The notes below the pieces were generated by a model. That model was not told the origin of the DNA. It did not search any database and was given only the letters and a program-made list of their open reading frames with translations. A program made the position numbers and the translations under genes. 64,000 nt of DNA from Sulfurimonas sp. HSL1-2. Its GTDB lineage: Bacteria; Campylobacterota; Campylobacteria; Campylobacterales; Sulfurimonadaceae. Position 1 is the stretch's first letter. The number at the start of each line of letters is the position of its first letter. Location: the NCBI RefSeq assembly GCF_039645565.1, contig NZ_CP147914.1, positions 2,291,573 to 2,355,572 on the forward strand, in the 5' to 3' direction. Below are positions 2,293 to 57,185 of this stretch, piece by piece.

Positions 2293-2799
2293 TTAGCTGT
2301 TCTGCAGCTCCGCCAGCTTCTTCTTGACCTCTTCGACATGCACGATCTCGTACTTCTCACCGTTCTTTGAACGTTTCTGACGAACTTTGACGTTCCCCCA
2401 TGCCGCGGCAACCTTTCCTTGCGGATCGATAATGTATGTCGTGCGCACGATGCCCATGTACTCTTTGCCGTAGTTCTTTTTCAGCGCCCAGACGCCGTAA
2501 TCTTCCATCATGGTGTGCTCCGGGTCGCTGAGCAAGGTGATCTTCAGCGACTGTTTCTCGATAAAGCTGCGGTGGACCTTCGGCGAATCGGCGCTGACGC
2601 CGAAAATGGCCGCCTTCAGCCCCTGGAATTCCGGCAGCTGTTCGGTGAAGTCGCACGCTTCGGTCGTACAGCCGGGCGTATTGTCCTTGGGGTAGAAGTA
2701 GAGCACGATCCATTTCCCTTTGAGATCGCGCGAACAGATCTCCACCTCGTCCTGGTTCTCCAGGCAAAAATCCGGTGCAACGGTTCCGATTTCAAGCAT
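2293..2799 (-). CDS. bcp: Thioredoxin-dependent thiol peroxidase (Bcp/PrxQ)
   Basis: A 168-residue peroxiredoxin of the PrxQ/Bcp class, which reduces hydrogen and organic peroxides with electrons from thioredoxin in the cytoplasm. The active-site segment YPKDNTPGCTTEAC carries the peroxidatic Cys44 and a candidate resolving Cys49 five residues later, the usual Bcp arrangement. The length is normal for the family. The ribosome binding site AAAAGGA precedes the ATG at 2799. It is a single gene, convergent with the DUF3373 gene; a thioredoxin and its reductase are encoded at about 19-20.4 kb of the window. Confidence 0.95.
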   Translation of the reverse strand: MLEIGTVAPDFCLENQDEVEICSRDLKGKWIVLYFYPKDNTPGCTTEACDFTEQLPEFQGLKAAIFGVSADSPKVHRSFIEKQSLKITLLSDPEHTMMEDYGVWALKKNYGKEYMGIVRTTYIIDPQGKVAAAWGNVKVRQKRSKNGEKYEIVHVEEVKKKLAELQNS

Positions 2800-2940
2800 T
2801 ATTTTGTCCTTTTCATTTTTGGGGAATCATAGCATAGGTGCCAAGTGCAGCAACCGTTCCTTCCCTGCAAAACCAATCGAAAGAGCTTCGACACGTCGAA
2901 GCGCATTCAATCAAATAGGGCCTTGGCCTTGAGCGTTCCT

Positions 2941-3138
2941 TGAAAGCCATCCCGGAGGCCCAAAGCCGGGAGGGATGAGCGATTCGCGAAAGGCCGCTTT
3001 TGCGCTACTTTTTTTAAAAAAGTGGCAAAGAAATACTCCGCTCATTCTTTTCTTTTTCATAAGAAAAGAACCAAAAGAAAATCGTCGTCGCGCGAATCGC
3101 GCGCTGCTCCCGGCTTTGGGCCTCCGCAGCGGCTTTCA
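2941..3138. repeat. Large inverted-repeat intergenic element
   Basis: The 457-base gap between bcp and the DUF523 gene holds a composite palindromic element. A perfect 20-base inverted repeat has arms at 2953-2972 and 3107-3126, with further matches outward (TGAAAGCC at 2941 against GGCTTTCA at 3131) and inward (GCGATTCGCG). Inside are two smaller hairpins: one around 3006-3025 (CTACTTTTTTT / AAAAAAGTGG) and a perfect 10-bp stem TTCTTTTCTT / AAGAAAAGAA at 3045-3070 with a 6-base loop. No credible protein frame is present. It looks like a dispersed noncoding repeat of the REP/MITE kind. Confidence 0.7.
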
Positions 3139-5879: not shown

Positions 5880-5970
5880 AACACCAATAAAAAAACGATA
5901 ACGCCCCAAGTAATCCCCCCTTTATCCCATCTATGCAAAAATGTATTCGATTGAAAAGAGGTGCAAAGCC

Positions 5971-7599
5971 ATGGTCATCGAATCCAACTACGTCGATATC
6001 CGCCGCCGCGAGATCTACCCCGCCAAAGTCATCATTGAAAACGGCGTTATCGATGCCGTTACCAAAATCGACACCCCCTGCTCCACCTACCTCCTCCCCG
6101 GCTTCATCGACGCGCATATCCACATTGAAAGCTCCATGCTCCCGCCGAGCGAATTCGCCCGCCTCGCCGTCCTTCACGGTACGGTGGCAACCGTCTCCGA
6201 CCCCCACGAGATCGCCAACGTTCTCGGCATCAAAGGGGTGGAATTCATGCTGGAAAATGCCGGGAAGGTTCCTTTCCACTTCGCCTTCGGGGCCTCCCCC
6301 TGCATCCCGGCGACCCCCTTTGAAACGAGCGGTGCGCTCCTCGGCGTCGAGGAGGTGAAAACACTGCTGGCAAACCCGAAGATCCGCTACCTCAGCGAGG
6401 TGATGAACTTCCCGGGGGTTGTCGCCGGCGACGCGGAGATGCTTGCAAAGATCGCGGCTGCAAAGACGCTGGGAAAACCCGTCGACGGCCACGCCCCCGG
6501 TCTGCGCGGCGACGACCTGAAACGCTACATCGCTGCCGGCATCACGACCGACCATGAAGCCTTCACCTACGAAGAGGGGCTGGAAAAGGTTCAGGCGGGG
6601 ATGAAGATCCTCATCCGTGAGGGCTCCGCCGCGAAAAACTTCGAAGCCCTTGCCCCGCTGATAAAAGCGTACCCCGACATGCTGATGTTCTGCAGCGACG
6701 ACCGCCACCCCGACGACCTCCGCCGAGAACATATTGACGCCCTCGTACGGCGCGCCGTCGCCAAGGGGTATGACCTCTTCGACGTGCTTCGCATCGCCTG
6801 CCTCAATCCCATTGATCACTACGGCCTCGGCGTCGGTACGCTGCAGCCGGGGGAGAGCGCCGACCTCATCGAAGTCAATAATCTGGAGGATTTCAGCGTC
6901 CTACGGACCGTTATCGGGGGCCGCATTGTTGCCGAAAAAGGCAGAAGCCTTATCCACTCCGTACCGCTGCCGGAGCTCAACAACTTCCATGCAGCGCCTA
7001 AGCGGCCGGAGGATTTTGCCTTTCCGCCCTGTGACACCGTGGAGGTGATCGAGGCCGTCGACGGCGAACTGGTCACCCACGAGATGATCGCCTCGCTGAA
7101 AAACGTCCCTGCCCGCCGCATCGGTGACCCCGAGCACGACATTCTCAAAATTGCCGTCGTCAACCGTTACGAAGAGGCCCCGCCCGCCGTCGCCTACGTG
7201 AACGGTTTCGGACTGAAAGAGGGGGCCATCGCCTCCAGCGTCGCCCACGATTCCCACAACATCATCGCCGTCGGCTGCAGCGACGAAGCGATCGCCGAGG
7301 CGGTCAACCTCATCATCGATTCCCGGGGCGGTATCTGCGCATTGAACGCCGCGGAACAGCATCTGCTGCCGCTGCGCATCGCCGGGATCATGAGCGGAGA
7401 AGACGGTTTCAAAGTCGCTGAACAGTACGAAATGCTGGACCGCTTCGCAAGATCGGCGCTGGGTTCAAAATTGCACGCACCGTTTATGACCCTCTCGTTT
7501 ATGGCGTTGCTCGTCATCCCCGAACTCAAACTCAGCGACAAGGGGCTATTCGACGGGCGGACCTTCCACTTCATCAAAGGGTGCAGAACAGAACCATGA
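5971..7599 (+). CDS. ade: Adenine deaminase
   Basis: The 542-residue product is a full-length adenine deaminase of the amidohydrolase superfamily, converting adenine to hypoxanthine and ammonia in the cytoplasm. Metal-binding and family motifs are clear: LPGFIDAHIHIESS, SDPHEIANVLG, DGHAPGL and FCSDDRHPDDL. The ATG at 5971 is chosen because AGAGGT lies 8 bases upstream; the ATG at 5941 has no ribosome binding site. The stop overlaps the ATG of the permease gene (ATGA), so uptake and deamination are translationally coupled. Hypoxanthine produced here could feed the xanthine-dehydrogenase-type enzyme encoded next door. Confidence 0.95.
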   Translation: MVIESNYVDIRRREIYPAKVIIENGVIDAVTKIDTPCSTYLLPGFIDAHIHIESSMLPPSEFARLAVLHGTVATVSDPHEIANVLGIKGVEFMLENAGKVPFHFAFGASPCIPATPFETSGALLGVEEVKTLLANPKIRYLSEVMNFPGVVAGDAEMLAKIAAAKTLGKPVDGHAPGLRGDDLKRYIAAGITTDHEAFTYEEGLEKVQAGMKILIREGSAAKNFEALAPLIKAYPDMLMFCSDDRHPDDLRREHIDALVRRAVAKGYDLFDVLRIACLNPIDHYGLGVGTLQPGESADLIEVNNLEDFSVLRTVIGGRIVAEKGRSLIHSVPLPELNNFHAAPKRPEDFAFPPCDTVEVIEAVDGELVTHEMIASLKNVPARRIGDPEHDILKIAVVNRYEEAPPAVAYVNGFGLKEGAIASSVAHDSHNIIAVGCSDEAIAEAVNLIIDSRGGICALNAAEQHLLPLRIAGIMSGEDGFKVAEQYEMLDRFARSALGSKLHAPFMTLSFMALLVIPELKLSDKGLFDGRTFHFIKGCRTEP

Positions 7600-8879
7600 A
7601 CCCTTTTCAACTCCGCGACCACGGCACGGACGTCCGCACCGAGATGACCGCCGGCTTTACGACCTTCCTCGCCATGCTCTACATCGTCCCCGTCAACGCC
7701 GCGATCCTCAGTGCAGCAGGCCTTCCTTTTGATGCCGTCATCACGGCGACGGCGGTCATGACCATCATTGCCTCCATCCTCAACGGCCTCTGGGCCAACA
7801 CCCCTATTGCCATGAGCGTCGGCATGGGGCTCAACGCCTACTTCAGCTTCGGGCTCGTCAAGGGGATGGGGCTGGCATGGCAGACGGCGCTGGGGATCGT
7901 CTTCCTCTCCGGCATCCTCTATATCCTCATCAGCATCACTCCGCTGCGGCGCTGGATGATCACAACGATCCCCGTCGATGTCAAACGCGCCGTCAGCGCA
8001 GGTATCGGGGCCTTCATCGCCTTTATCGGGATGGAGCAGCTTCACCTCATCACGGACAGCCCGGCGACCCTGGTCACCCTGGGCAACCTCAAAGACCCCC
8101 ACCTTCTCATCGGCCTCTTCGGCCTCGGCCTGGCGATCTTTTTTGTCATCAAAAAGGTCCGTGGAGCCTTTATCCTCTCCATCACGTTGACCGCCCTGCT
8201 CGCCTGGGCGACGGGGGTGGAGCCGATGCCCGAGAGCTTTTTCTCCCTGCCCGCCTCTATGGCACCGATCGCCTTCGAACTCGACATCACCTCGGCGCTC
8301 AGCCTCTCGATGGCGCCGCTCATCCTCATCTTCCTCATCACCGACCTCTTTGACACCCTCGGCACCCTGACGGGGGTCGGGATGCGCGCGAACCTCTTCC
8401 ACGGCAAGGACTCCGTCCCCCTGCAGCGCACCATCGAGGCCGACGCCGCGGCGACGATGCTCAGCGGCCTTGCCGGGGTCACCAGCACAACCGCATTCAT
8501 CGAGAGTGCTGCCGGGGTAGAAGCGGGCGGGCGGACGGGACTGACCGCCGTCGTTACCGGGCTGCTTTTCATATTGCCGCTCTTCTGGCTCCCCTTTTTC
8601 CAGGCCATCCCCTCCAACGCCGTCTATCCCGTTCTTATCGTTATCGGCGTCATGATGTTCGGGGAACTGCAGCACATCGACTATTCGGACGCGGCGGTCA
8701 AGTACAGCACCTTCTTGATCGTCCTGGGGATGCCGCTCACCTACTCCATCACCGACGGCCTGCTGCTGGGCTCACTCGCCTACGTCTTTATCCGCCTCAT
8801 CCAGGGGCGCTTCAGGCAGATCGATATCGCGATGGGCGTCCTCGCCGCCGTCGCCCTGCTCGTCTTCTTCGTTCTTTGA
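7596..8879 (+). CDS. Purine permease, NCS2 family, AzgA-like
   Basis: A 427-residue polytopic membrane protein of the AzgA branch of the NCS2 family, proton symporters for adenine, guanine and hypoxanthine. It shows about 12 hydrophobic segments, the N-terminal GFTTFLAMLYIVPVN motif, a SVGMGLNAYF motif and ITDLFDTLGTLTGVG, all hallmarks of AzgA/PbuG proteins. The start at 7596 overlaps the ade stop by four bases; the GTG at 7581 is a weaker alternative because AAAGG touches it directly. It ends two bases before the convergent MocA-like gene. Confidence 0.93.
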   Translation: MNPFQLRDHGTDVRTEMTAGFTTFLAMLYIVPVNAAILSAAGLPFDAVITATAVMTIIASILNGLWANTPIAMSVGMGLNAYFSFGLVKGMGLAWQTALGIVFLSGILYILISITPLRRWMITTIPVDVKRAVSAGIGAFIAFIGMEQLHLITDSPATLVTLGNLKDPHLLIGLFGLGLAIFFVIKKVRGAFILSITLTALLAWATGVEPMPESFFSLPASMAPIAFELDITSALSLSMAPLILIFLITDLFDTLGTLTGVGMRANLFHGKDSVPLQRTIEADAAATMLSGLAGVTSTTAFIESAAGVEAGGRTGLTAVVTGLLFILPLFWLPFFQAIPSNAVYPVLIVIGVMMFGELQHIDYSDAAVKYSTFLIVLGMPLTYSITDGLLLGSLAYVFIRLIQGRFRQIDIAMGVLAAVALLVFFVL

Positions 8880-8881
8880 GC

Positions 8882-9427
8882 TCAGCCGAAGATGCGTCTG
8901 AGCTCCTCATCCGTATTGGCGTTGAGCGCCACCTTCGGATCGTCGACGTCAACGGCCTCTGCGATGCCGGTCGCCTCGATCCATGCATCTAAACGCCCCG
9001 CGTCCGAGGCGAGCAGATCGCTTTTCATCACGGCGCTGATGCGCTGCGGCGGCCTGCGGTGTCCCTCGTAAAAAGCCGTCGCCACTGGGCTTTCGCTGCG
9101 GGATAGCGCTTCGAAGACGCGCTTGTCCGGCACGGGGCGGTCCACCTGGCAGAAGTAGAGCTCCGGGGCATCGAGCGTCTCGAACGCCCTCTTGACCGAG
9201 GAGAACATCCCCTCCCCATACGCTTCGTTGCGGATCACCTTCACCCCATCGGGAAGGACGGCGCTGATCCGCTCATAGGCATATCCCAGAACGACGGCGA
9301 CATCGTAGCCGTAGCTTTGCAGCTGCCGGATCTGCCGGTTGATCAGGTACTCCCCCTCCACCCTGTACAGTGATTTCAGATCAGAGGTGCGGGAGGATCT
9401 CCCGGCGGCGAGCAGGACGACCGTCAT
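8882..9427 (-). CDS. MocA/MobA-like molybdopterin nucleotidyltransferase
   Basis: A 181-residue nucleotidyltransferase with the signature LLAAGRSSRTSDLKSL and a later QVDRP motif matching the metal-binding region of MobA/MocA proteins. The family attaches CMP or GMP to molybdopterin; MocA makes the cytosine dinucleotide form used by xanthine-dehydrogenase-family enzymes. As the last gene of the xanthine-dehydrogenase-type operon, with its ATG overlapping the stop of the FAD-subunit gene, it very likely equips that enzyme with cofactor. GGAGGAGAG just before the ATG supports the start at 9427; the long upstream frame is a shadow of the FAD gene. Confidence 0.85.
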   Translation of the reverse strand: MTVVLLAAGRSSRTSDLKSLYRVEGEYLINRQIRQLQSYGYDVAVVLGYAYERISAVLPDGVKVIRNEAYGEGMFSSVKRAFETLDAPELYFCQVDRPVPDKRVFEALSRSESPVATAFYEGHRRPPQRISAVMKSDLLASDAGRLDAWIEATGIAEAVDVDDPKVALNANTDEELRRIFG

Positions 9428-10230
9428 CTCTCCTCCGGCTGCGAAAGGGCTTCCTTGATCATGTTGAACGCCACCCGGAGCCGGTACGCTTTCGTCGAAC
9501 GGTGCCCGCCGGAGGGGTCCGTATCGCTCTCGAGGGCTTCTTTGATCGCCGCGTCGTCGTACACACCCCCATCCAGCAAGGCTTCGAGGGTCCGAAAGCG
9601 GACGGGAGAAGGCCCCAGCGACGCCCCGCTGATACGGAAACCGCCGTGGCCCTGCGTCAGGGCGATACTCACTTTCGCGATGTTGAGCCGCTCTCTCATC
9701 CCCGCCTTTCGGTAGTACCACTCTCCCGTCTGCAGCGGAACGGTGACGGCGGTAATGAGCTCATGGTCGAGTTTCGTGCATTTGTAGCCGCAGTAGAACG
9801 CTTCAAGCGGCACGCTCCGCTCCCCCTCCTGCGACGCCAGCGTCACCGTGGCCTCCAGCGCCACGAGCGCAGCCGTCAGGTCCGCGGCGGGTGAGGCGTT
9901 GGCAATATTGCCGCCGACGGTGGCGAGGTTGCGGATCTGGTGCGAGCCGAAGGTTTCGGCACAGGCCGCCAGCAGCGGCAGGGAAGCCCGGACCACATCG
10001 CTGCGGAGCAGTTCGTTGAGCGTCACAAGCGCGCCGATCCGCATATGGCCGTCTTCCACGCTGACGCCTTTCAGCTCCTCCAGGGCGTGGATGTCGATGA
10101 GGGTGGCGGTGGCAGCGGCATGCCGCAGCTGCAGCGCCGCATCTGTGCTGCCGCAGAGCAGCAGTGCCTCCGGATACCGCGCCAACAGTGCCGTCGCCTC
10201 GCCGAGATTCGTCGCACGCAGATAGTTCAT
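9424..10230 (-). CDS. Xanthine dehydrogenase family FAD-binding subunit
   Basis: A 268-residue FAD subunit of a xanthine-dehydrogenase/CO-dehydrogenase-type molybdoenzyme. It carries the two FAD motifs of the family, LLCGSTDAALQLR near residue 25 and IRNLATVGGNIANASPAADL near residue 100. It takes electrons from the 2Fe-2S subunit and passes them to NAD or another acceptor. It overlaps its neighbours by four bases at both ends, showing a tightly coupled operon. Confidence 0.93.
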   Translation of the reverse strand: MNYLRATNLGEATALLARYPEALLLCGSTDAALQLRHAAATATLIDIHALEELKGVSVEDGHMRIGALVTLNELLRSDVVRASLPLLAACAETFGSHQIRNLATVGGNIANASPAADLTAALVALEATVTLASQEGERSVPLEAFYCGYKCTKLDHELITAVTVPLQTGEWYYRKAGMRERLNIAKVSIALTQGHGGFRISGASLGPSPVRFRTLEALLDGGVYDDAAIKEALESDTDPSGGHRSTKAYRLRVAFNMIKEALSQPEER

Positions 10231-10670
10231 GACTTCACCTTTACGATGGCCTCGACGATCTTCCGGTAGCCTGTACAGCGGCAGAGATTGCCGTCCAGGG
10301 CCGCCTTGATCGCCTCTTCACTGCGTTCACCGCCGTGACTGAGGTAGTCGTAGGCGCGCAGGACGAAGCCCGGCGTGCAGAAGCCGCACTGTACGGCACC
10401 GTGTTCGGCAAAGCTTTCGCGGATCGCTGCCGTCTCCTCCTGCAACCCCTCCAGCGTCACAACCTCCGCGTCCTGTATCTGCGGGGCAAGCAGCAGGCAG
10501 GCATTGACGAGTCTGCCGTTGACAAAGAGGCTGCAGGCGCCGCACTCCCCTTCACCGCAGCCCGCCTTGACCGACGTCATTCCCGCCTCGCGCACCAGGT
10601 CGAGCACCCGGCTCTCCGGGGCACAGTCAAACCGGTGAACTTTGCCGTTGATCGTACACGTTATCTGCAT
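10227..10670 (-). CDS. Xanthine dehydrogenase family 2Fe-2S subunit
   Basis: A 147-residue protein with the two [2Fe-2S] clusters of the family: a plant-type ferredoxin motif GCGEGECGACS (residues about 38-48) with a further Cys in VNACLL, and the alpha-helical domain motif QCGFCTPGF with CRCTGY. It relays electrons from molybdenum to FAD. The length is near the usual 150-160. Its start overlaps the end of the molybdenum-subunit gene by ten bases. Confidence 0.95.
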   Translation of the reverse strand: MQITCTINGKVHRFDCAPESRVLDLVREAGMTSVKAGCGEGECGACSLFVNGRLVNACLLLAPQIQDAEVVTLEGLQEETAAIRESFAEHGAVQCGFCTPGFVLRAYDYLSHGGERSEEAIKAALDGNLCRCTGYRKIVEAIVKVKS

Positions 10671-12796
10671 GCTTCCTCCACCGTTTCCGGGGTGATCGGC
10701 AAAGCGTCAAAAGCGTTTCCGAGGACATGCCCAAGCGCGTTTGCGACGGCGGCGGCCGGACCGTCCATCGGCAGCTCCCCAAGCCCCAGCGAGGGACCTT
10801 CCAAACCAAGGAAACGCACGGAAATTTTCAGCAGGTCGGGGGCCATCGGCAGCGTATAATCACTGAAACGGGGACTTCGTACGCGCCCCGTTTCATACAC
10901 CAGGCGCTCGAAAAGGGCATACCCGATCCCCTGGGCCACACCCCCTTCGACCTGCCCCTCCGCCATCATGGGATTGACAACCTGACCGACGTCGTTGTAG
11001 GCGTCAAAACGGACGACCCGGACGCGGTAGTCGACGGGGTCAACTTCCACTTCGGCGATGTAGCATCCCAGCCCGTACGCCTCATAGCCGTTGCCGTAAA
11101 AGAGGTCTTCGTCCCAGAGAATGTCGGCGGGTTGTTCATAGGAGGCTCCGAACTGCTGCGGAGCGCCACTTTGCCGGTAGCGCGTCACCGCCTCCCGGTA
11201 CCCGTCTGGACTGTCATAGTCCCCAAGCGCCGTTTTCAGCTTGCTCGCCGCCTGTGCGAGCAGGCGCCCGACGATCATCACCGTCCGGGAAGCGACCGTC
11301 GGGCCGCTGTCGGCGACCTCGGCGGTATTCGGAGTACGGCAGGTGACCATCTCCACGGGGAGTGCCAGCGCATCGGCGACGATCTGCGGCAGCGCCGTCA
11401 GCGTCCCCTGCCCCATCTCCACGCTCCCGACACGGATTTCGACGCTGCCGTCCGATTCCAGGGCGATCGAAACGCTGGAGGCCAGCATGCTCTCCCCTAC
11501 GCCGGTGTACCCGGCACCATGCATAAAGAGCGCCATTCCGACCCCTCGGTGCGGTGATGGGACGTCGTAAAGGGCATCAAAACCGCTCTCGCGCCGTGCG
11601 GTCTCGAACAGGGCACGCAGCCGGGCATGTTCGGTGATAGGCACCCCCGAAACGCCGACCGAGTCCGCACCGGGGAGGTTGCGTTCGCGCACCGCCGCCG
11701 GCGAAAGGCCGAGAGCGCGGGCGATATCGTCCATGTGGCGCTCGATCCCGAAAAGGACCTGCGGGGCACCGAACCCCCTGAAAGCCCCGTTGGGCGGGGT
11801 ATTCGTCGCCACGGCGCGGGCGTCGATCCTGAGGTAGCCGCAGTCGTAGAAGCCCGCCGCATGCAGGACGCAGCGCGCGAGGACGACGGGCGAGAGCGTC
11901 ACATATGCCCCGCCGTCGATGATGATCTCCACTTCCAGCGCATACAGTTTACCCATGGAATCAAAGCGGCTTTTGTAGCGCAGTTTTGAGGGGTGGCGCT
12001 TGGTCGTGTAGGCAATATCCTCTTCACGGTCATAGACGATTTTGACATCCTGCCCTGCCTTCTTGCAGAGCAGGTAGGCGTAACCCGCGATCAGGGAGGG
12101 GTAATCCTCCTTGCCGCCGAAGCCGCCCCCCGTCGGGGCCTGTTCCACCTCGATCTTCTCGCCGGCCAGCCCCTCCAGCGCCGCCTCGACGAAGAAAGGG
12201 CACTGCATCGAGCCGATGATCTTGACCCGCCCGCCGTTGTAGCGCGCCACCATGCTTTGCGGCTCCAGGTAGGCCTGCTCCTGATGCGGGGTCGTGTAGG
12301 TTTTGTCCAGGCTATGAAGCCCCTCCGCTTCCGGGACGCTGCCCTTGACCGTATGTATGGCTTTGAAGACGTTGTCCTCGCCGTAGAGCCGCTGCTTGCA
12401 CGCCAGGGACTCCTCCATGCTCAGTACCGGTTCCTGCGCGTCGTAGTCGATCGTGATATGGGCCGCCGCATCGCGCAGCCGCTGTTTCGAACGGTGCGCC
12501 AGCAGCAGGATCGGCTCCCCGATGTGCCGGACACGCGTTGCAGCGAGGAAGGGCTGGTCGTCGGTCAGGACGACGTTGGCATTGCGCCCCTCGATATCGC
12601 TGTGGTCAACGATGACAATGCCGGAAAAATCAAAGGCCGGGTCATAGGTGATCGACCGAATCTTTCCGTAGGCAATCTCGGAGCGCACGACCACACCGTA
12701 CAAGCCGTCAAAAGCGAGATCATCCGTATAGCGCAGCGTCCCGTCCGCTTTCGCCGCGGCATCGACACGGACAACGCTCTCTCCCACCACTCCCAT
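10661..12796 (-). CDS. Xanthine dehydrogenase family molybdenum-binding subunit
   Basis: A 711-residue molybdopterin subunit. Family motifs are TGGGFGGKED, PPNGAFRGFGAPQ, VEMGQGTLT, and GELPMDGPAAAVANAL with the catalytic Glu of the GE pair. By comparison from memory with bovine xanthine dehydrogenase, the substrate-binding Glu (in GGFGGKE) and Arg (in the LARCVLH segment) are both kept, favouring a purine hydroxylase over an aldehyde or CO oxidase. It heads the operon Mo subunit, 2Fe-2S, FAD, MocA and lies convergent to the adenine deaminase and permease genes, so hypoxanthine-to-urate oxidation is a coherent role. No uricase is in the window. Confidence 0.92.
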   Translation of the reverse strand: MGVVGESVVRVDAAAKADGTLRYTDDLAFDGLYGVVVRSEIAYGKIRSITYDPAFDFSGIVIVDHSDIEGRNANVVLTDDQPFLAATRVRHIGEPILLLAHRSKQRLRDAAAHITIDYDAQEPVLSMEESLACKQRLYGEDNVFKAIHTVKGSVPEAEGLHSLDKTYTTPHQEQAYLEPQSMVARYNGGRVKIIGSMQCPFFVEAALEGLAGEKIEVEQAPTGGGFGGKEDYPSLIAGYAYLLCKKAGQDVKIVYDREEDIAYTTKRHPSKLRYKSRFDSMGKLYALEVEIIIDGGAYVTLSPVVLARCVLHAAGFYDCGYLRIDARAVATNTPPNGAFRGFGAPQVLFGIERHMDDIARALGLSPAAVRERNLPGADSVGVSGVPITEHARLRALFETARRESGFDALYDVPSPHRGVGMALFMHGAGYTGVGESMLASSVSIALESDGSVEIRVGSVEMGQGTLTALPQIVADALALPVEMVTCRTPNTAEVADSGPTVASRTVMIVGRLLAQAASKLKTALGDYDSPDGYREAVTRYRQSGAPQQFGASYEQPADILWDEDLFYGNGYEAYGLGCYIAEVEVDPVDYRVRVVRFDAYNDVGQVVNPMMAEGQVEGGVAQGIGYALFERLVYETGRVRSPRFSDYTLPMAPDLLKISVRFLGLEGPSLGLGELPMDGPAAAVANALGHVLGNAFDALPITPETVEEACR

Positions 12797-47115: not shown

Positions 47116-48807
47116 TCAGTACCCTTCAGGGCCGTCGTGACAGTCGTAACAGCTGACCATGTGACCGGCTTTGAACTCCGTTGTTCCCCATGACGTCGTG
47201 TAGCTGCGTTCAGAGGATGTCCTGGAAAGTATGCTCCCCCGGTAATCATCCCCGTGACACGCTTTACACGATGCGCGGTCGTGGTTTGCCACGGTGCTGT
47301 GCGGGTAAACCTCCGATTGAAATACCGTGTGCATGCCATGCGGGCCTGCATCGTGGGTATACGGTACGGTGTCATGGCAGGCCGTACACTCGGCCACCGT
47401 CCCTCTATGTCCCTGAACCGTCATGCTCTGGATATTGTCCTCATCATGCGAACTCGGGTAGATCGCGTGGGTCGAACCGTGGCAGGCTGAACACTGCATG
47501 CTGCCGTGGCCCGTGCTGTAGCGGTAGAGGCTGACCCCCGCCGCCGGCGTATCCGGGTTCGTCGCAAAGCGCGTATCGAGCGCCTCGCGCAGCGTGCCTG
47601 TGCTCATGTCCGTCACCGCCGTCTCATACCGCATGCCCTCCTGGTGGCATGCCTGGCAGTTCGGCTCCTCCAGCCATCCGCTGCGCGCATGGGCCCCGAC
47701 CGCATTCATCGTGCCGTGGCAGCTCTGGCACTGGATGTTGCTCTGTTTGCCCATGGCACCGCGCAGACACTTCGTCGTCGCGCCCGGATGGCAGCGGTAG
47801 CAGGCGTCGCGGTTGGTCGAGCTGTTCAGCGTCAATCCGTTGTCCGGGTCTTTCACCTCCGAATGCAACGCATGGATCGCCTCCGTCAACGGCTTGATGC
47901 CGGCAATGCCCGTACCCGGAAGCGCATTGCTGCCGTGGCAGGTCGCGCAGAGCACCGGGTTGGCGTTTTTTGCCGTCGGGTAAAGCCCTGCATCGTCATA
48001 GCCGTTATAGCCGGCCGTCTTCAGCTCCGGTTGATGGTCCGATACCGCTGTCGGGAACTTTTCGTCGTGCAGCCGTAGGATATTCCATTTGAAATCCTTC
48101 TCGGCATCGGTGTCTTGTTCCCATCCCCCCGCCGGCCGTGCCGCAACGTATCCGCTCGACGACCCGTGGCAGGCCCGGCAGTCCATCTCGTCGCTGACCG
48201 GCAGCACCACCATCGTCGTCGCCAGGAGCGTGCCCGAAGTATCTTTGGCCGCGACACGGACCATCGGGTAATAGTTCTTGCTGCCGTCGTCATTATAGGG
48301 CGTCATCGGCAGCCCCGTCGCTTCCCACCAGTTTGTTGACGCATTGAAAGAGAGGTTGTACTCACCCAGGTCCGGTGTATGGTTGCCCGTCAAACCCGTA
48401 TCGGGAAGGGGGGAGGCGTGGAACAGAAGCTCCACAAAATCCCAGAAGTTTGTCTTGAGGCTGTTACGATCGTTATAGACGCTTGTCGTATTGTATTTGC
48501 CGTCAAGCGATGCCACCGCGCTGTAGGTGATCGTCACCCCCGATGTCACATGCTTATCGGACGTATCCGCCTTCCGGATCAGTTGGGCGTTCAGATTGTT
48601 GTAGGGTGGCAGGATGGAGAAGACGGAGAAGTCGCTGCCGTCCATGCAGTGCATCCCCAGGTCGTTCCAGGCCAGTAGCGTATAAGCGCCGCTGTTCCCG
48701 AATTCCGCAGCAGCGACTGCCTCCGCTCTGTTGTCGTTCGACGTGCTGCCGCAGGCAGACAGCATAAAGACGAGTCCCGCCGCAATGATCTCTTTCACAT
48801 ATCGCAT
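47116..48807 (-). CDS. Nonahaem c-type cytochrome, lipoprotein (paralogue 1)
   Basis: A 563-residue exported cytochrome. The signal peptide ends in lipobox MLSAC (Cys19), so it is a lipoprotein. Residues about 40-200 form a haem-free domain with AWNDLGMHCMDG and FSVFSILPPYN. Nine CxxCH motifs follow: CRACH, CATCH, CYRCH, CQSCH, CQACH, CSACH, CTACH, CKACH, CYDCH, plus a lone Cys in TTKCLRGAMG. It is paralogous to the two cytochromes at 53.6-57.1 kb and presumably moves electrons at the outer membrane or beyond; donor and acceptor are unknown. GGAG precedes the ATG at 48807. The promoter carries the shared direct-repeat operator. Confidence 0.9.
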   Translation of the reverse strand: MRYVKEIIAAGLVFMLSACGSTSNDNRAEAVAAAEFGNSGAYTLLAWNDLGMHCMDGSDFSVFSILPPYNNLNAQLIRKADTSDKHVTSGVTITYSAVASLDGKYNTTSVYNDRNSLKTNFWDFVELLFHASPLPDTGLTGNHTPDLGEYNLSFNASTNWWEATGLPMTPYNDDGSKNYYPMVRVAAKDTSGTLLATTMVVLPVSDEMDCRACHGSSSGYVAARPAGGWEQDTDAEKDFKWNILRLHDEKFPTAVSDHQPELKTAGYNGYDDAGLYPTAKNANPVLCATCHGSNALPGTGIAGIKPLTEAIHALHSEVKDPDNGLTLNSSTNRDACYRCHPGATTKCLRGAMGKQSNIQCQSCHGTMNAVGAHARSGWLEEPNCQACHQEGMRYETAVTDMSTGTLREALDTRFATNPDTPAAGVSLYRYSTGHGSMQCSACHGSTHAIYPSSHDEDNIQSMTVQGHRGTVAECTACHDTVPYTHDAGPHGMHTVFQSEVYPHSTVANHDRASCKACHGDDYRGSILSRTSSERSYTTSWGTTEFKAGHMVSCYDCHDGPEGY

Positions 48808-48834
48808 CATTTCTCCTCACGCGGAAATGAGTGG

Positions 48835-52194: not shown

Positions 52195-53403
52195 CTACGG
52201 CCATATCGGTTCAGTATTTCCACTACCCCAGTTGGCACTAAACAAGTAATGGTCTGTGACGTTTGCCACGTTCCATACGCTCAGGTCATGATTTGTAAAA
52301 CTTCCTGCATTGGCGAACATGTAATTCATGTTAGTGACACTGCCTGTGTTCCAATTTTCAATATAGCCGTTGAAGGCAGAGGCAGACCTGAACATCTGGC
52401 TCATATTTGTCACACTGCCGACCTTCCAAAAACCAAGATAGCGGTTGAACGAACTTGCACCGTAAAACATGTTTTGCATATCCGTGACACTGCTGACGTC
52501 CCAGAAACCGATATCTTTGTCAAACGCAGTCGCCAGATAGAACATGCCGGCCATACTCGTCACACTGCCGACGTTCCAGCCACCGATAGGCTGGTTAAAG
52601 GAATCTGCCTGACTAAACATGCCGATCATACTCGTTACACTGCCGACATCCCAGGCCCCGATGGCCTGGTTAAAGGAGTCTGCATTGAGGAACATACCCG
52701 CCATCGTCGTCACACTGCCGACATCCCAGGCGCCGATAGGCTGGTTGAACGTGCCGGCATAATTAAACATATTGCTCATATCCGTCACGCTGCCGACATC
52801 CCATCCGCTTATGTCCCGGTTGAACGCGCCGGCATACCAGAACATGCCGTTCATGTTCGTCACGCTGCTGACGTTCCAATCCCCGATATCCGAATTGAAA
52901 GCAGTCGCCCTCATAAACATGCGGCTCATATCCTGCACCTGCGAAAGGTCCGGCTGATCCACCGCTTCGAATTGCAGATTGGAGCACCCCTGAAACGCGT
53001 TTGCCATCGAACGCCATTGGCCCGTGCCCCACTGCTTCACACTGAGCAGTTTGTCGCTGTCGAAATCCTCGTTGAAATAGATCTGCGGGAACGCACCGGT
53101 GACGGAAACGGTGTAATTCCCCTCCTCCGGGTAGGTACAGATATAGTCCCCCGTGACATTGACATCTTCAACCACGCCGTCGCTGTCGCAGTCGACGCTG
53201 TAGTCGTATCCCGCTCCCGTCGTCGGGATCCGGAACTCCGTGCTGCTTGTCGTACCGGGGTTATCCGTTTTAACGGTCATCATAAATGCATCAGCATTGT
53301 CGCCCGTACCGCCCCCCGACGATCCCCCGCCGCATCCGGCCAGCAACGTTATCACCACAGCCGTCGTCAAAATGACATTTCTTTTATGGTTAATATATTT
53401 CAT
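52195..53403 (-). CDS. BspA/DUF285 repeat lipoprotein
   Basis: A 402-residue lipoprotein: signal peptide with lipobox LLAGC (Cys24), a Gly/Ser-rich linker, an N-terminal domain (about 40-130) and then about nine tandem 25-residue repeats of the pattern SFNQPIGxWDVGSVTSMxGMF, the DUF285/BspA-type surface repeat. Such proteins are usually displayed on the cell surface and mediate adhesion or ligand binding. The 75-base DNA repeat is visible in the gene. It lies between the ribosomal operon and cytochrome 2, on the same strand. Confidence 0.88.
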   Translation of the reverse strand: MKYINHKRNVILTTAVVITLLAGCGGGSSGGGTGDNADAFMMTVKTDNPGTTSSTEFRIPTTGAGYDYSVDCDSDGVVEDVNVTGDYICTYPEEGNYTVSVTGAFPQIYFNEDFDSDKLLSVKQWGTGQWRSMANAFQGCSNLQFEAVDQPDLSQVQDMSRMFMRATAFNSDIGDWNVSSVTNMNGMFWYAGAFNRDISGWDVGSVTDMSNMFNYAGTFNQPIGAWDVGSVTTMAGMFLNADSFNQAIGAWDVGSVTSMIGMFSQADSFNQPIGGWNVGSVTSMAGMFYLATAFDKDIGFWDVSSVTDMQNMFYGASSFNRYLGFWKVGSVTNMSQMFRSASAFNGYIENWNTGSVTNMNYMFANAGSFTNHDLSVWNVANVTDHYLFSANWGSGNTEPIWP

Positions 53404-53564: not shown

Positions 53565-55271
53565 TCAATCCCCTCCGGGACCGTTATGGCAGTCGTAGCA
53601 GCTGACCGCGTGGCCGGCGGCGAAGCTCTTCGTCCCGGACTCGGTACTGAAACTCCGTGCCGAGAAGGTCTTGGAGAGGAAGGTTCCGCGGTAATCACTG
53701 CCGTGGCAGGCAGCACATTGGGCAAGGTTGCCACTGGCGGCGTTCTCGTGTGCCCCTACCCAAGTCTGTCCGACGCTGTGCATGCCGTGCGGCCCGCCGC
53801 TGGTCGTTGCCGGCACCGTCTCATGGCAGGCCGTACATTCGGCAATCGTCCCCGCATGCCCCTGTACGGCAATACTCTGGAGATTGTCCTCCGTATGCGA
53901 ACTCGGGTAGATGGCATGGGTCGAGCCGTGGCAGGCCGAACACTGCATATCGCCGTGACCCGTGCTGAAGCGGTAGAGGCTGATACCCGCCGCCGGCGTA
54001 TTCGGGTTCGTTGCAAAACGGCTGTCAAGCGCCGCGCGCAGCGTCCCCGTCTGCATATCCGTCACCGCCGTGTCGTAGCGCATGCCGTTCTGGTGGCACG
54101 CCTGGCAGTTGGGCTCTTCCAGCCAGCCGACCCGGCCGTGCTGTCCGACGGCATTCATGCTGCCGTGACAGCTCTGGCACTGGATGCTGCTGATCTTGCC
54201 CATCGCCCCGCGCAGACACTTCGTCGTCGCGCCCGGGTGGCATCGGTAACAGGCGTCACGGTTCGTCGAGCTGTTCAGGGGCTGGCCGTTCACCGGATCT
54301 TCGACCTCGGCATGCAGAGAGTGCAGCGCCTCCGTCAGCGGTTTCGTCCCGCTCACTCCCGCCGTGCCCAGTGCATTGGTGCTGTGACAGGTCGCACAGA
54401 GCACCGGGTTGCCGTTCTTGGCAGTCGTATAGAGCCCGGCGTCATCGTAGCCGTTGTAGCCCGCTGCCTGCAGCTCCGTCTGATGAGCGCTTACCGCAGA
54501 CGGATGCTCCTCGTCGTGCAGGCGAAGAATATTCCATTTGAAATCCTTTTCCGGATCGGCGTCATTTTCCCATCCGGATGAAGGCATCGCCTCGCTATAG
54601 CCGCTGGCCGAACCGTGGCAGGCGCGGCAGTCCATCTCGTCGCTGACCGGCAGCACGACCCTTGTCGTCGCCAGGACGTTCCCCGATCCGTCCTTGGCAA
54701 CTACATCCACCATAGGATAGTAGTTCTTACTGCCGTCATCGTTGTACGGCGTGATCGGCAGCCCCGTCGCCTCCCACCAGTTTTCCCCGGCATTGTAGTG
54801 CAGCATATGCTCGGTCATCTCCGGCGTATGGTTGCCCGTCAGGCCGACATCGGGTGCAGGGTTCGCAAGAAAGAGCGTGCCCACATAGTCCCAGAAGTTC
54901 GTCTTGAGGTTGTTTTGGTTGTCGTAGATGCTCGTCGTATTGAATTTCCCGTCCAGTGACGCTGCCGCCGTATACGTAACGGTAACCCCCGAAGTCACAT
55001 GTTTCTCGCCGCCGTCAGTTTTCATGATCAACTGCGCATTGAGCGTATTGTAGGGCGGCAGAATCGAAAAGACCGAAAAGTCCTTCCCGTCCATGCAGTG
55101 CATCCCCAGGTCGTTCCAGGCCAGGAGCGTATAAGAGGCCGCAGTCGTACCGCCGCTTCCGCCCCTGCCTTTTTTACCTCTGCTGCCATCGCTTTTCGCA
55201 TTGGCCCCCATTGCCACAGCGCAGGCCAAAGCCACGCACACGACACCGGCAAGTACTCTTTTGCCTTTCAT
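53565..55271 (-). CDS. Nonahaem c-type cytochrome, soluble type (paralogue 2)
   Basis: A 568-residue exported cytochrome. Its signal peptide (MKGKRVLAGVVCVALACAVA ...) ends near MGANA-KS, a type I cleavage site, with no convincing lipobox; a basic Gly-rich stretch GSRGKKGRGGSGG follows. The haem-free domain (AWNDLGMHCMDG, FSVFSILPPYN) and nine CxxCH motifs (CRACH, CATCH, CYRCH, CQSCH, CQACH, CSACH, CTACH, CAACH, CYDCH) are as in paralogues 1 and 3, plus the lone Cys in KCLRGAMG. AAGGAG lies 6 bases before the ATG. It has its own operator-promoter and terminator. Confidence 0.9.
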   Translation of the reverse strand: MKGKRVLAGVVCVALACAVAMGANAKSDGSRGKKGRGGSGGTTAASYTLLAWNDLGMHCMDGKDFSVFSILPPYNTLNAQLIMKTDGGEKHVTSGVTVTYTAAASLDGKFNTTSIYDNQNNLKTNFWDYVGTLFLANPAPDVGLTGNHTPEMTEHMLHYNAGENWWEATGLPITPYNDDGSKNYYPMVDVVAKDGSGNVLATTRVVLPVSDEMDCRACHGSASGYSEAMPSSGWENDADPEKDFKWNILRLHDEEHPSAVSAHQTELQAAGYNGYDDAGLYTTAKNGNPVLCATCHSTNALGTAGVSGTKPLTEALHSLHAEVEDPVNGQPLNSSTNRDACYRCHPGATTKCLRGAMGKISSIQCQSCHGSMNAVGQHGRVGWLEEPNCQACHQNGMRYDTAVTDMQTGTLRAALDSRFATNPNTPAAGISLYRFSTGHGDMQCSACHGSTHAIYPSSHTEDNLQSIAVQGHAGTIAECTACHETVPATTSGGPHGMHSVGQTWVGAHENAASGNLAQCAACHGSDYRGTFLSKTFSARSFSTESGTKSFAAGHAVSCYDCHNGPGGD

Positions 55272-55412: not shown

Positions 55413-57131
55413 TCAATCCCCGCCGGGACCGTTGTGACAGTCGTAGCAGCTGACCGCGTGGCCGGCGGCGAAGCTCTTCGTCCCCCAATCGGTGCTGAAA
55501 CTGCGCGCCGAGAAGGTCTTGGAAAGGAACGTACCGCGGTAATCACTGCCGTGGCATGCCGTACAGCCGATCCGGCTGCTTTCGGCGACATCACCATGTG
55601 CACCGACCCAGTACTGTCCGACACTGTGCATGCCGTGCGGCCCTTCAGCCGTTGTCCTCGGTATCGTGTCATGGCAGGCCGTACATTCGGCGATGGTACC
55701 CTCGTGCCCCTGTACCGCGATGCTCTGGAGGTTGTCCTCCGTATGCGAACTCGGGTAGATGGCATGGGTCGAACCGTGGCAGGCCGAACACTGCATGTCG
55801 CCGTGGCCCGTGCTGAAGCGGTAGAGGCTTACCCCCGATGCCGGTGTATTCGGGTTCGTTGCGAAGCGGGTATCGAGCGCCGCACGCAGCGTCCCCGTCT
55901 GCATATCCGTCACCGCCGTCTCATACCGCTTCCCATCCTGGTGACAGGCCTGGCAGTTGGGCTCTTCCAGCCAGCCGACCCGGCCGTGCTGTCCGACGGC
56001 ATTCATGCTGCCGTGGCAGCTCTGGCACTGGATGGTACCGACCTTGCCCATCGCCCCGCGCAGACACTTCGTTGCCGCCCCCGGGTGGCAGCGGTAACAT
56101 GCATCGCGGTTCGTCGAACTGTTCAGTGTCTCCCCGTTCGTCGGGTCCGTTACCTCGGCATGCAGTGAGTGCAGCGCCTCTGTCAGCGGTTTCGTCCCGC
56201 TCACTCCCGCCGTGCCCAGTGCATTGGTGCTGTGACAGGTCGCACAGAGTACCGGGTTGTTGTTCTGCGCCGTCGCTTCCAGGCCGGCACTGTCATACCC
56301 GTTGTAGCCGGCTGCCTGCAGCTCTGTCTGGTGGGCACTGACCGCCGTCGGATGTTCCTGGTCATGCAACCGCAGGATGTTCCATTTATAATCTTTCTCC
56401 GGGTCGGCGTCGTTGGCCCAGCCCGCATTCGGCATCGCGTCCGTATATCCACTGGTGGAACCATGGCAGGCGCGGCAGTCCATCTCGTCGCTGACCGGCA
56501 GCACGACCTTCGTCGTTGCCAGCACATTCCCCGATCCGTCTTTTGCCGTGACGTTCACCATCGGGTAATAGTTCTTGCTGCCGTCGTCGTTATACGGGGT
56601 AATAGGAAGGCCCGTCGCCTCCCACCACTGCTCCGCCGCGTTGTAGCTCAGCGTATGGCCGCTCAGCTCCGGCGTATGGTTACCCGTCAGGCCCGTGTCC
56701 GCTGCGGGAGTCGCGTTGAAAAGTGCCCCCACATAGTCCCAGAAATTGGTCTTCAGGTCATTGCTGTCGGTATAGACGCTCGTGGTGTTGTACTTCCCGT
56801 CCAGTGATGCCGCCGCGGTGTACGTAATCGTCACCCCGCCGGTCACATGCTTATCGGAAGTCCCCGCCCGTTTGATCAACTGGGCGTTGAGGTTGTTATA
56901 GGGCGGCAGGATCGAAAAGACCGAAAAGTCCTTCCCGTCCATACAGTGCATCCCCAGATCGTTCCAGGCCAGGAGCGTGTAATCGGCCGTCGTGCCTTCC
57001 CAGACCGTTCCCCCGCTGCTGACGGTGTCTTCACTCTCACTTTCGCCCGATGTCGTCGCCATCTGGCATCCTCCCAGCCACAAGGCTGTAAGTCCTGCCA
57101 TCAACAGCTTTTGCCAAAGTACCGTTCGCAT
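55413..57131 (-). CDS. Nonahaem c-type cytochrome, lipoprotein (paralogue 3)
   Basis: A 572-residue exported cytochrome with signal peptide and lipobox LGGC (Cys22), a Ser/Glu-rich linker, the haem-free domain (AWNDLGMHCMDG, FSVFSILPPYN) and nine CxxCH motifs: CRACH, CATCH, CYRCH, CQSCH, CQACH, CSACH, CTACH, CTACH, CYDCH; the extra Cys in TKCLRGAMG is kept. The second half is almost identical to paralogue 2. GAGGAG is 6 bases before the ATG at 57131; the frame from 57167 is less likely. It is divergent from the response regulator gene and shares an operator with it. Confidence 0.9.
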   Translation of the reverse strand: MRTVLWQKLLMAGLTALWLGGCQMATTSGESESEDTVSSGGTVWEGTTADYTLLAWNDLGMHCMDGKDFSVFSILPPYNNLNAQLIKRAGTSDKHVTGGVTITYTAAASLDGKYNTTSVYTDSNDLKTNFWDYVGALFNATPAADTGLTGNHTPELSGHTLSYNAAEQWWEATGLPITPYNDDGSKNYYPMVNVTAKDGSGNVLATTKVVLPVSDEMDCRACHGSTSGYTDAMPNAGWANDADPEKDYKWNILRLHDQEHPTAVSAHQTELQAAGYNGYDSAGLEATAQNNNPVLCATCHSTNALGTAGVSGTKPLTEALHSLHAEVTDPTNGETLNSSTNRDACYRCHPGAATKCLRGAMGKVGTIQCQSCHGSMNAVGQHGRVGWLEEPNCQACHQDGKRYETAVTDMQTGTLRAALDTRFATNPNTPASGVSLYRFSTGHGDMQCSACHGSTHAIYPSSHTEDNLQSIAVQGHEGTIAECTACHDTIPRTTAEGPHGMHSVGQYWVGAHGDVAESSRIGCTACHGSDYRGTFLSKTFSARSFSTDWGTKSFAAGHAVSCYDCHNGPGGD

Positions 57132-57185
57132 CTTCATCTCCTCTTGCGGCACCTGGGCAGACCCCAAACGCCATTATCATACCGC

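Follow-up and report, generated by a model that had tools for sequence, protein, structure and literature searches.

The window analysed here is a 64,000-nucleotide stretch of the genome of Sulfurimonas sp. HSL1-2 (G000:C1:2291573-2355572), which is a single contig of 2,521,190 bases with a completeness of 100. Positions 5971-12796 hold six genes in two blocks (Table 1). The plus-strand block consists of an adenine deaminase gene (ade) and a purine permease gene (azgA). Facing it on the minus strand is an operon for a molybdenum (Mo) hydroxylase, in which the genes for the Mo subunit, the 2Fe-2S subunit, the flavin adenine dinucleotide (FAD) subunit and a MocA-like nucleoside triphosphate (NTP) transferase overlap end to start. 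The blocks converge, and 2 bases separate the stop of the permease gene from the end of the gene for the transferase. An earlier note, made from the letters of this DNA alone, had described the same six-gene layout, and profile matches and coordinates recovered every element of it. The genes are interpreted here as a purine-catabolic module that probably serves to import adenine, deaminate it and oxidise the product to urate.

Table 1. Genes of the putative adenine-to-urate module and codons of three key residues of the Mo subunit (positions in the window).
Feature	Length (amino acids)	Position	Strand	Basis
Adenine deaminase (ade)	542	5971..7599	+	TIGR01178, PF13382, PF01979
AdeQ/AzgA-type purine permease (NCS2 family)		~7596..8879	+	PF00860 (126.6 bits)
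MocA/MobA-like NTP transferase	181	8882..9427	-	PF12804 (74.5 bits)
FAD subunit (cutM/XdhB-like)	268	9424..10230	-	PF00941 (163.1 bits)
2x[2Fe-2S] subunit (cutS/XdhC-like small subunit)	147	10227..10670	-	PF00111, PF01799
Mo-pterin subunit (cutL)	711	10661..12796	-	PF02738 (224 bits), PF20256, PF01315; trees; structure matches
Glu674 codon		10775..10777	-	Aligns with catalytic base Glu730 of R. capsulatus XdhB (bovine Glu1261)
Arg308 codon		11873..11875	-	Aligns with R. capsulatus XdhB Arg310 (bovine Arg880)
Glu230 codon		12107..12109	-	Aligns with R. capsulatus XdhB Glu232 (bovine Glu802)

The ade product exceeds the curated cut-off of its family model (TIGR01178, 611.5 vs. 472.5 bits) and is 39% identical to E. 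coli AdeD. An alternative, longer open reading frame (ORF) begins at an ATG at 5941. The ATG at 5971 is preferred because AGAGGTG, which resembles a ribosome-binding site, precedes it and because the homologue in another genome of the family (G031) begins at the matching methionine. This bears out the start given in the earlier note. The permease is 36% identical to E. coli AdeQ and 32% to GhxQ, both of which we take to be AzgA-like. These two proteins match the window in a tblastn search, and XanQ and UacT have no match at E 1e-4. Judged by its sequence the permease is closest to the AzgA/AdeQ type (COG2252). Its ATG at 7596 was chosen from the overlap with the ade stop; the ORF is open from a GTG at 7581. 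There is one strong NCS2 permease in each of six genomes compared, always beside adenine deaminase. Four of these genomes are near-complete and belong to the window's genus (the window's own, G000, and its sisters G004, G006 and G007), and each of the four has one extra, weak NCS2 match (26-27 bits).

The operon encodes a member of the xanthine oxidase superfamily. MoCoBD_1, MoCoBD_2, two 2Fe-2S domains and FAD_binding_5 are all present, and the 2Fe-2S subunit has the cysteine motifs CGEGECGAC...C and CGFC...CRC. The MoCoBD_1 match is the only one in the genome by profile search. A closer assignment is not obtained from family models. The Mo subunit lies below the NCBIfam cut-offs for xanthine dehydrogenase (XDH), scoring 289.0 vs. 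849.5 for TIGR02965, 347.5 vs. 783.65 for TIGR03196 and 335.0 vs. 780 for NF043082. For the FAD subunit the top model is XdhB_XDHase, at 170.2 bits and under the cut-off of 310. None of the three hydroxylase subunits reaches an NCBIfam equivalog cut-off, which makes the Mo subunit a separate branch by sequence. It is best classed as a distant, uncharacterised XDH branch.

One clue to the substrate comes from the pocket of the Mo subunit. Eight positions were compared, in R. capsulatus XdhB numbering: Glu232, Arg310 and Glu730, together with Gln197, Phe341, Phe344, Phe459 and Thr460, which we take to be pocket positions as well. Mutation data indicate that Glu232, Arg310 and Glu730 matter for xanthine (PMC9966888). 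The window's subunit has Gln198, Glu230, Arg308, Phe339, Phe342, Tyr430, Thr431 and Glu674. Seven of these are the same as in the XDHs of R. capsulatus and rat, and the eighth is a change from Phe to Tyr. The Glu of GGFGGKE and the Arg of ARCVLH, which the earlier note had proposed as purine-binding residues, are both in place and align with Glu232 and Arg310.

How many other enzymes look like this? The alignment comprises 52 hand-picked Mo-subunit rows, and the counts speak for that set alone. The rows are 9 of 16 homologous loci, 17 of 19 plasmid-record stretches (a small part of all plasmid matches), two E. coli proteins, five PDB chains and 19 proteins from the window and other genomes, which represent part of the 41 genomes with a MoCoBD_1 protein. 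Fourteen rows score 7 or 8, ten of them from the window's clade and four of them canonical XDHs. All eight residues are found in G031, L013, Acidithiobacillus caldus and Peribacillus, and seven in G558 and G560 (Ile for Thr). The Mo subunit of G452, the frame of which stops early, matches at all 5 positions covered. Four rows come next with a score of 6, namely three nicotinate-cluster-type enzymes and an enzyme from G258. Nonomuraea scores 5 and a partial nicotinate dehydrogenase chain 4 of 5 covered positions. The remaining 31 rows, including carbon monoxide dehydrogenase, PaoC and 4-hydroxybenzoyl-CoA reductase, score 2 or 3. In E. coli XdhA, a putative xanthine dehydrogenase by annotation, the Glu and the Arg are replaced by Gln and Ala. 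Therefore, a positive pocket test supports purines whereas a negative one cannot exclude them. A separate observation concerns the Mo hydroxylase at L087 in G258, also of the Campylobacterota, which keeps the Glu, the Arg and both Phe residues, has Val-Gly at the next two positions and clusters close to an actinobacterial pucD-like protein.

The purine specificity predicted for the Mo subunit from these residues is also moderately supported by phylogeny. Two trees of 43 rows each were built, with Nonomuraea, which is without the pocket Arg, as a mere stand-in for B. subtilis PucD and selenium-dependent XDH, neither of which was included. The window's clade joins A. caldus and Peribacillus with support of 100/100 and 100/99 in the two trees, and lies beside canonical XDH plus a Salmonella plasmid enzyme with 87/94 and 88/90. 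A tree in which the clade is constrained to join canonical XDH and nothing else is not rejected (p = 0.331). The union with nicotinate-type rows is marginally rejected by the approximately unbiased (AU) test (p = 0.038), and in neither tree does the Mo subunit group with nicotinate-cluster enzymes. The earlier note had named a grouping with aldehyde or nicotinate hydroxylases as the result that would count against it, and no such grouping appeared.

The trees also place relatives of the Mo subunit in other phyla. Among 72,556 plasmid records the closest relative is that of A. caldus, with 41% identity over 99% of the length. The Peribacillus cluster has the order nucleotidyltransferase-Mo-FeS-FAD-XdhC. 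A recent import from a GC-rich donor was considered and rejected. The operon genes have a guanine plus cytosine (GC) content of 62.8-65.3%, compared with 59.9-61.6% in four flanking genes, but the excess is not evidence of transfer because GC at third positions is no different (0.77-0.81 vs. 0.80-0.83).

All six genes are under purifying selection. The ratio of nonsynonymous to synonymous substitution rates (dN/dS), taken over the six pairs that the four congeneric species form, ranges over 0.02-0.21 in ade and azgA, 0.115-0.144 in cutL, 0-0.19 in cutM and cutS and 0.15-0.27 in the gene of the MocA-like protein. There are no premature stops in any of the six genes in the four species. With ratios of 0 to 0.27 and no premature stops, these are not chance reading frames.

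The comparison with G007 adds a further aspect. The synonymous rate between it and the window is 0.02-0.11 in ade, azgA, mocA, cutM and cutS. For cutL it is 0.40, and for four genes on the flanks 0.30-0.51. Identity in 400-base steps is 0.978-0.998 over about 6300-11100, save for the step at 8700 (0.922), and 0.75-0.95 outside this tract. This is what a recent exchange of most of the module as one tract, by homologous recombination between the two species, would leave. A second, short patch lies at 2700-3100 of the window, with 97.5% identity to G004 and 75-79% to the other two congeners. Loss can be seen in G003 (L034:160-1000), where 33 bases of ade, 290 bases of azgA and the beginning of cutL, together with the region upstream of it, are joined in the right order. 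Identity of the three pieces to the window is 94%, 98% and 87%. For the azgA piece it is 97.6% with both the window and G007 and 89% with G004. They are likely a decay relic after two internal deletions, with an assembly error as the alternative.

The earlier note expected such a capacity to be unusual in the phylum, and the counts agree. A MoCoBD_1 protein is found in 41 of 397 phylum genomes and the C-terminal domain of adenine deaminase in 15 of 397 (a second draw, apparently the same as the first). Five genomes have both, namely the four of the window's genus and G290. In the family, 18 of 228 genomes have a match to the Mo subunit. In 11 of these the identity is at least 52%, and two of the 11 hold short fragments. 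The Mo-subunit gene is intact in seven (G000, G004, G006, G007, G031, G558 and G560). The operon too is intact in G558 and G560, where the MocA-like gene is again the last. The Mo gene is split between two frames in G510 and broken in G452; the short fragments are in G003 and, at a contig end, in G018. Adenine deaminase is present in all seven genomes with an intact Mo gene, and in 9 of 9 if G510 and G452 are counted. It was not found in G003, G018, G001, G002 or G005, several of which are incomplete assemblies (completeness 65 to 99). These co-occurrence counts are not independent because the genomes are related. G510, a genome placed in the same family as the window, has a contig (L150) whose reverse complement is identical to L013 (Campylobacterales).

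The capacity is rare but not unique in the phylum, as G290 has an adenine deaminase together with xdhA, xdhB and xdhC of the XDH type (L083:3791-8291). All eight pocket residues are kept, and the grouping of its Mo subunit with the XDHs of rat and R. capsulatus has support of 100/100. xdhC scores above its cut-off (170.9 vs. 161.6), and xdhA (413.7 vs. 467) and xdhB (803.8 vs. 849.5) score slightly below theirs. Homologues of ade and azgA lie side by side on another contig. By prediction, therefore, the combination of deaminase and XDH arose with two different enzymes in the family.

Several known systems resemble the module in part. Rhodobacter capsulatus XdhAB with XdhC (PDB 1jro) has the same Mo-subunit domain make-up and pocket residues, with about 26% identity between XdhB and the window's Mo subunit in a structure alignment. 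In the window, in contrast, FAD and Fe-S are on separate subunits, and the operon includes a MocA-like gene and is without xdhC. The puc operon of B. subtilis (pucABCDE) contains the XDH-like pucCDE, the XdhC homologue pucA and a MocA homologue (PMC2997495). The XDH-like subunits and MocA homologue are shared with the window, and of the NCBIfam models pucD gives the Mo subunit its highest score, below the cut-off; pucA has no counterpart in the window. The A. caldus plasmid cluster (WP_014003649.1; L089) has the same Mo/Fe-S/FAD order. Unlike the window, it also has XdhC, ureidoglycolate lyase, hpxZ, AtzE-type genes and a ring-opening amidohydrolase. No adenine deaminase is annotated in this 26-kb stretch, the gene table of which is incomplete. 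In E. coli K-12, adeD-adeQ places adenine deaminase beside an adenine transporter, as in the window. However, the E. coli genes are divergent, whereas ade and the permease gene are co-directional and overlapping, and there is no xanthine dehydrogenase gene in the 14-kb stretch compared, which holds adeD-adeQ. Finally, purine deaminases lie beside xanthine dehydrogenases in Candidatus Izemoplasmatales and clostridia (PMC8289736). These loci differ from the window in having two purine-specific deaminases and accessory proteins and in belonging to other phyla.

The maturation of the hydroxylase is a puzzle. The last gene of the operon probably encodes a molybdenum cofactor nucleotidyltransferase, to judge from its NTP_transf_3 domain and its place. 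Its product is under the cut-offs of MocA (TIGR03310, 51.6 vs. 186.45 bits) and DVU_1551 (79.9 vs. 315). The XdhC domains PF02625 and PF13478 were not found at E 0.001 in G000, G004, G006 or G007; both occur in G031 and G290, and 4 and 5 of 14 control genomes also have matches. Bacterial enzymes of the xanthine oxidase family are described as usually dependent on an XdhC-family chaperone for their maturation (PMC2997495). XdhC is described as shielding the cofactor and sulfurating it before insertion. The failure to find XdhC in the genus leaves three explanations: another route of sulfur delivery, a very divergent XdhC that was overlooked, or a poorly matured enzyme. Given what XdhC does, an enzyme that is kept by purifying selection without it would need another route. 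Candidates would be direct delivery by a cysteine desulfurase, a carrier similar to FdhD, or a role of the divergent MocA-like protein in the delivery. Perhaps the clade is a purine hydroxylase that is matured without any XdhC-family chaperone, its module travelling between species as a unit. This is a tentative proposal, and somewhat doubtful. In G031, a second Mo hydroxylase with adjoining XdhC and NTP transferase lies about 42 kb away from the purine hydroxylase operon. Cache-domain genes follow the shortened MocA-like gene of that genome.

From the genes, their order, conservation and co-occurrence, the pocket residues and the tree position, we infer transport, the hydroxylations, the type of cofactor, the electron acceptor and the physiology. 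The permease would import adenine (or hypoxanthine) and the deaminase would convert adenine to hypoxanthine and ammonia. Beyond this step the pathway is predicted from sequence. The heterotrimeric hydroxylase (Mo, 2x[2Fe-2S], FAD) would oxidise hypoxanthine to xanthine and then to urate, and four electrons in all would reach an acceptor by way of the iron-sulfur clusters and FAD. The MocA-like protein would probably modify the cofactor. Urate would probably be excreted and is apparently the dead end of the pathway. Uricase was not found in any of six genomes, in a search that did not extend to flavin urate hydroxylase or anaerobic ygfK/ssnA-type routes. The main benefit would presumably be ammonia from adenine together with reducing equivalents. 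The earlier note had called the adenine-to-urate capacity complete. Its genes and residues hold up; the word complete does not, with no XdhC or uricase found and a MocA-like protein far below the MocA cut-off.

Some observations weigh against this pathway. The family scores of the hydroxylase subunits and the moderate support for the sister relation of the clade to canonical XDH are among them. The low family scores would fit an enzyme that hydroxylates another N-heterocycle (a pyrimidine, a pterin, a nicotinate-like compound or a modified purine), with the adenine genes serving a separate function. The A. caldus copy raises the same issue. Its place beside ureidoglycolate-lyase, hpxZ and other amide/ureide-catabolism genes favours purines, but the ring-opening amidohydrolase next door, together with the AtzE-type genes, could mean a pyrimidine-like substrate. 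Structure does not decide the matter. An AlphaFold model, made from a 13-sequence alignment (the window and 12 of 16 homologous loci), has a mean predicted local distance difference test (pLDDT) score of 73.7, with pocket segments 223-230, 338-343, 428-437 and 668-674 below 50. For this model VIA-align ranks xanthine oxidase/dehydrogenase first (Z 37.5) with aldehyde oxidase tied (36.8), and the fold is therefore not decisive between xanthine and aldehyde enzymes. Nicotinate dehydrogenase is absent among the 50 structure matches listed, which carries no weight either way. The three nicotinate-cluster-type enzymes do share six of the eight pocket residues. However, their residues aligned with Glu232 and Phe459 are Leu and Asn, as against Glu and Tyr in the window, and their union with the clade is marginally rejected. 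Adenine deaminase is also found in 9 of 9 genomes with a Mo match of at least 400 residues, which argues against a separate function. Another heterocycle is thus an unlikely substrate.

What if the adenine genes alone matter, for ammonia or hypoxanthine salvage, with a Mo enzyme that is immature or without activity? The missing XdhC fits this scenario, as does the presence of adenine deaminase without a MoCoBD_1 protein in 10 of 15 genomes. Phosphoribosyltransferase-fold genes are present, with 7 matches in G000. The locus is also not kept everywhere. The MocA-like gene of G031 (L032:8362-8481) stops after 40 codons beside an intact purine hydroxylase operon, the Mo frame of G452 (L151:71-1351) stops after 426 codons, 70 bases from a contig end, and G003 retains fragments. 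Nevertheless, the constraint on the Mo subunit in all six species pairs and the intact operons of G558 and G560 speak against a useless enzyme, and this scenario is slightly less probable still than a different heterocycle. Oxidation of adenine-derived hypoxanthine to urate is the preferred reading and is supported in substance; the predicted activity would be ordinary chemistry of a known pathway kind in an unusual host.

Elsewhere in the window, three proteins with MtrC/MtrF-like and cytochrome c7 matches, at 47116-48810, 53565-55271 and 55413-57167, are possible multihaem outer-membrane cytochromes. Repeats of DUF285, a family that takes its name from Mycoplasma, make up most of the protein encoded at 52195-53403. 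An Rfam scan of the window gave zero matches at gathering scores, which means no known purine riboswitch at that threshold. Scans for promoters (2 vs. a shuffle mean of 1.5) and terminators (3 vs. 6.1) gave nothing above shuffles, and no tRNA was found in the window.

Campylobacterota are usually described by their hydrogen, sulfur and organic-acid metabolism. The pathway is not described for them in the literature consulted, which consists mostly of titles and the starts of abstracts with few subscription journals. If the interpretation is true, the use of purines, with adenine as a source of ammonia and electrons, would have to be added to this picture of the phylum. There would also be a clade of XDH that is far from the characterised ones yet has the same pocket. 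The missing chaperone raises a question that can be tested: can this enzyme family receive a sulfurated molybdenum cofactor without XdhC?

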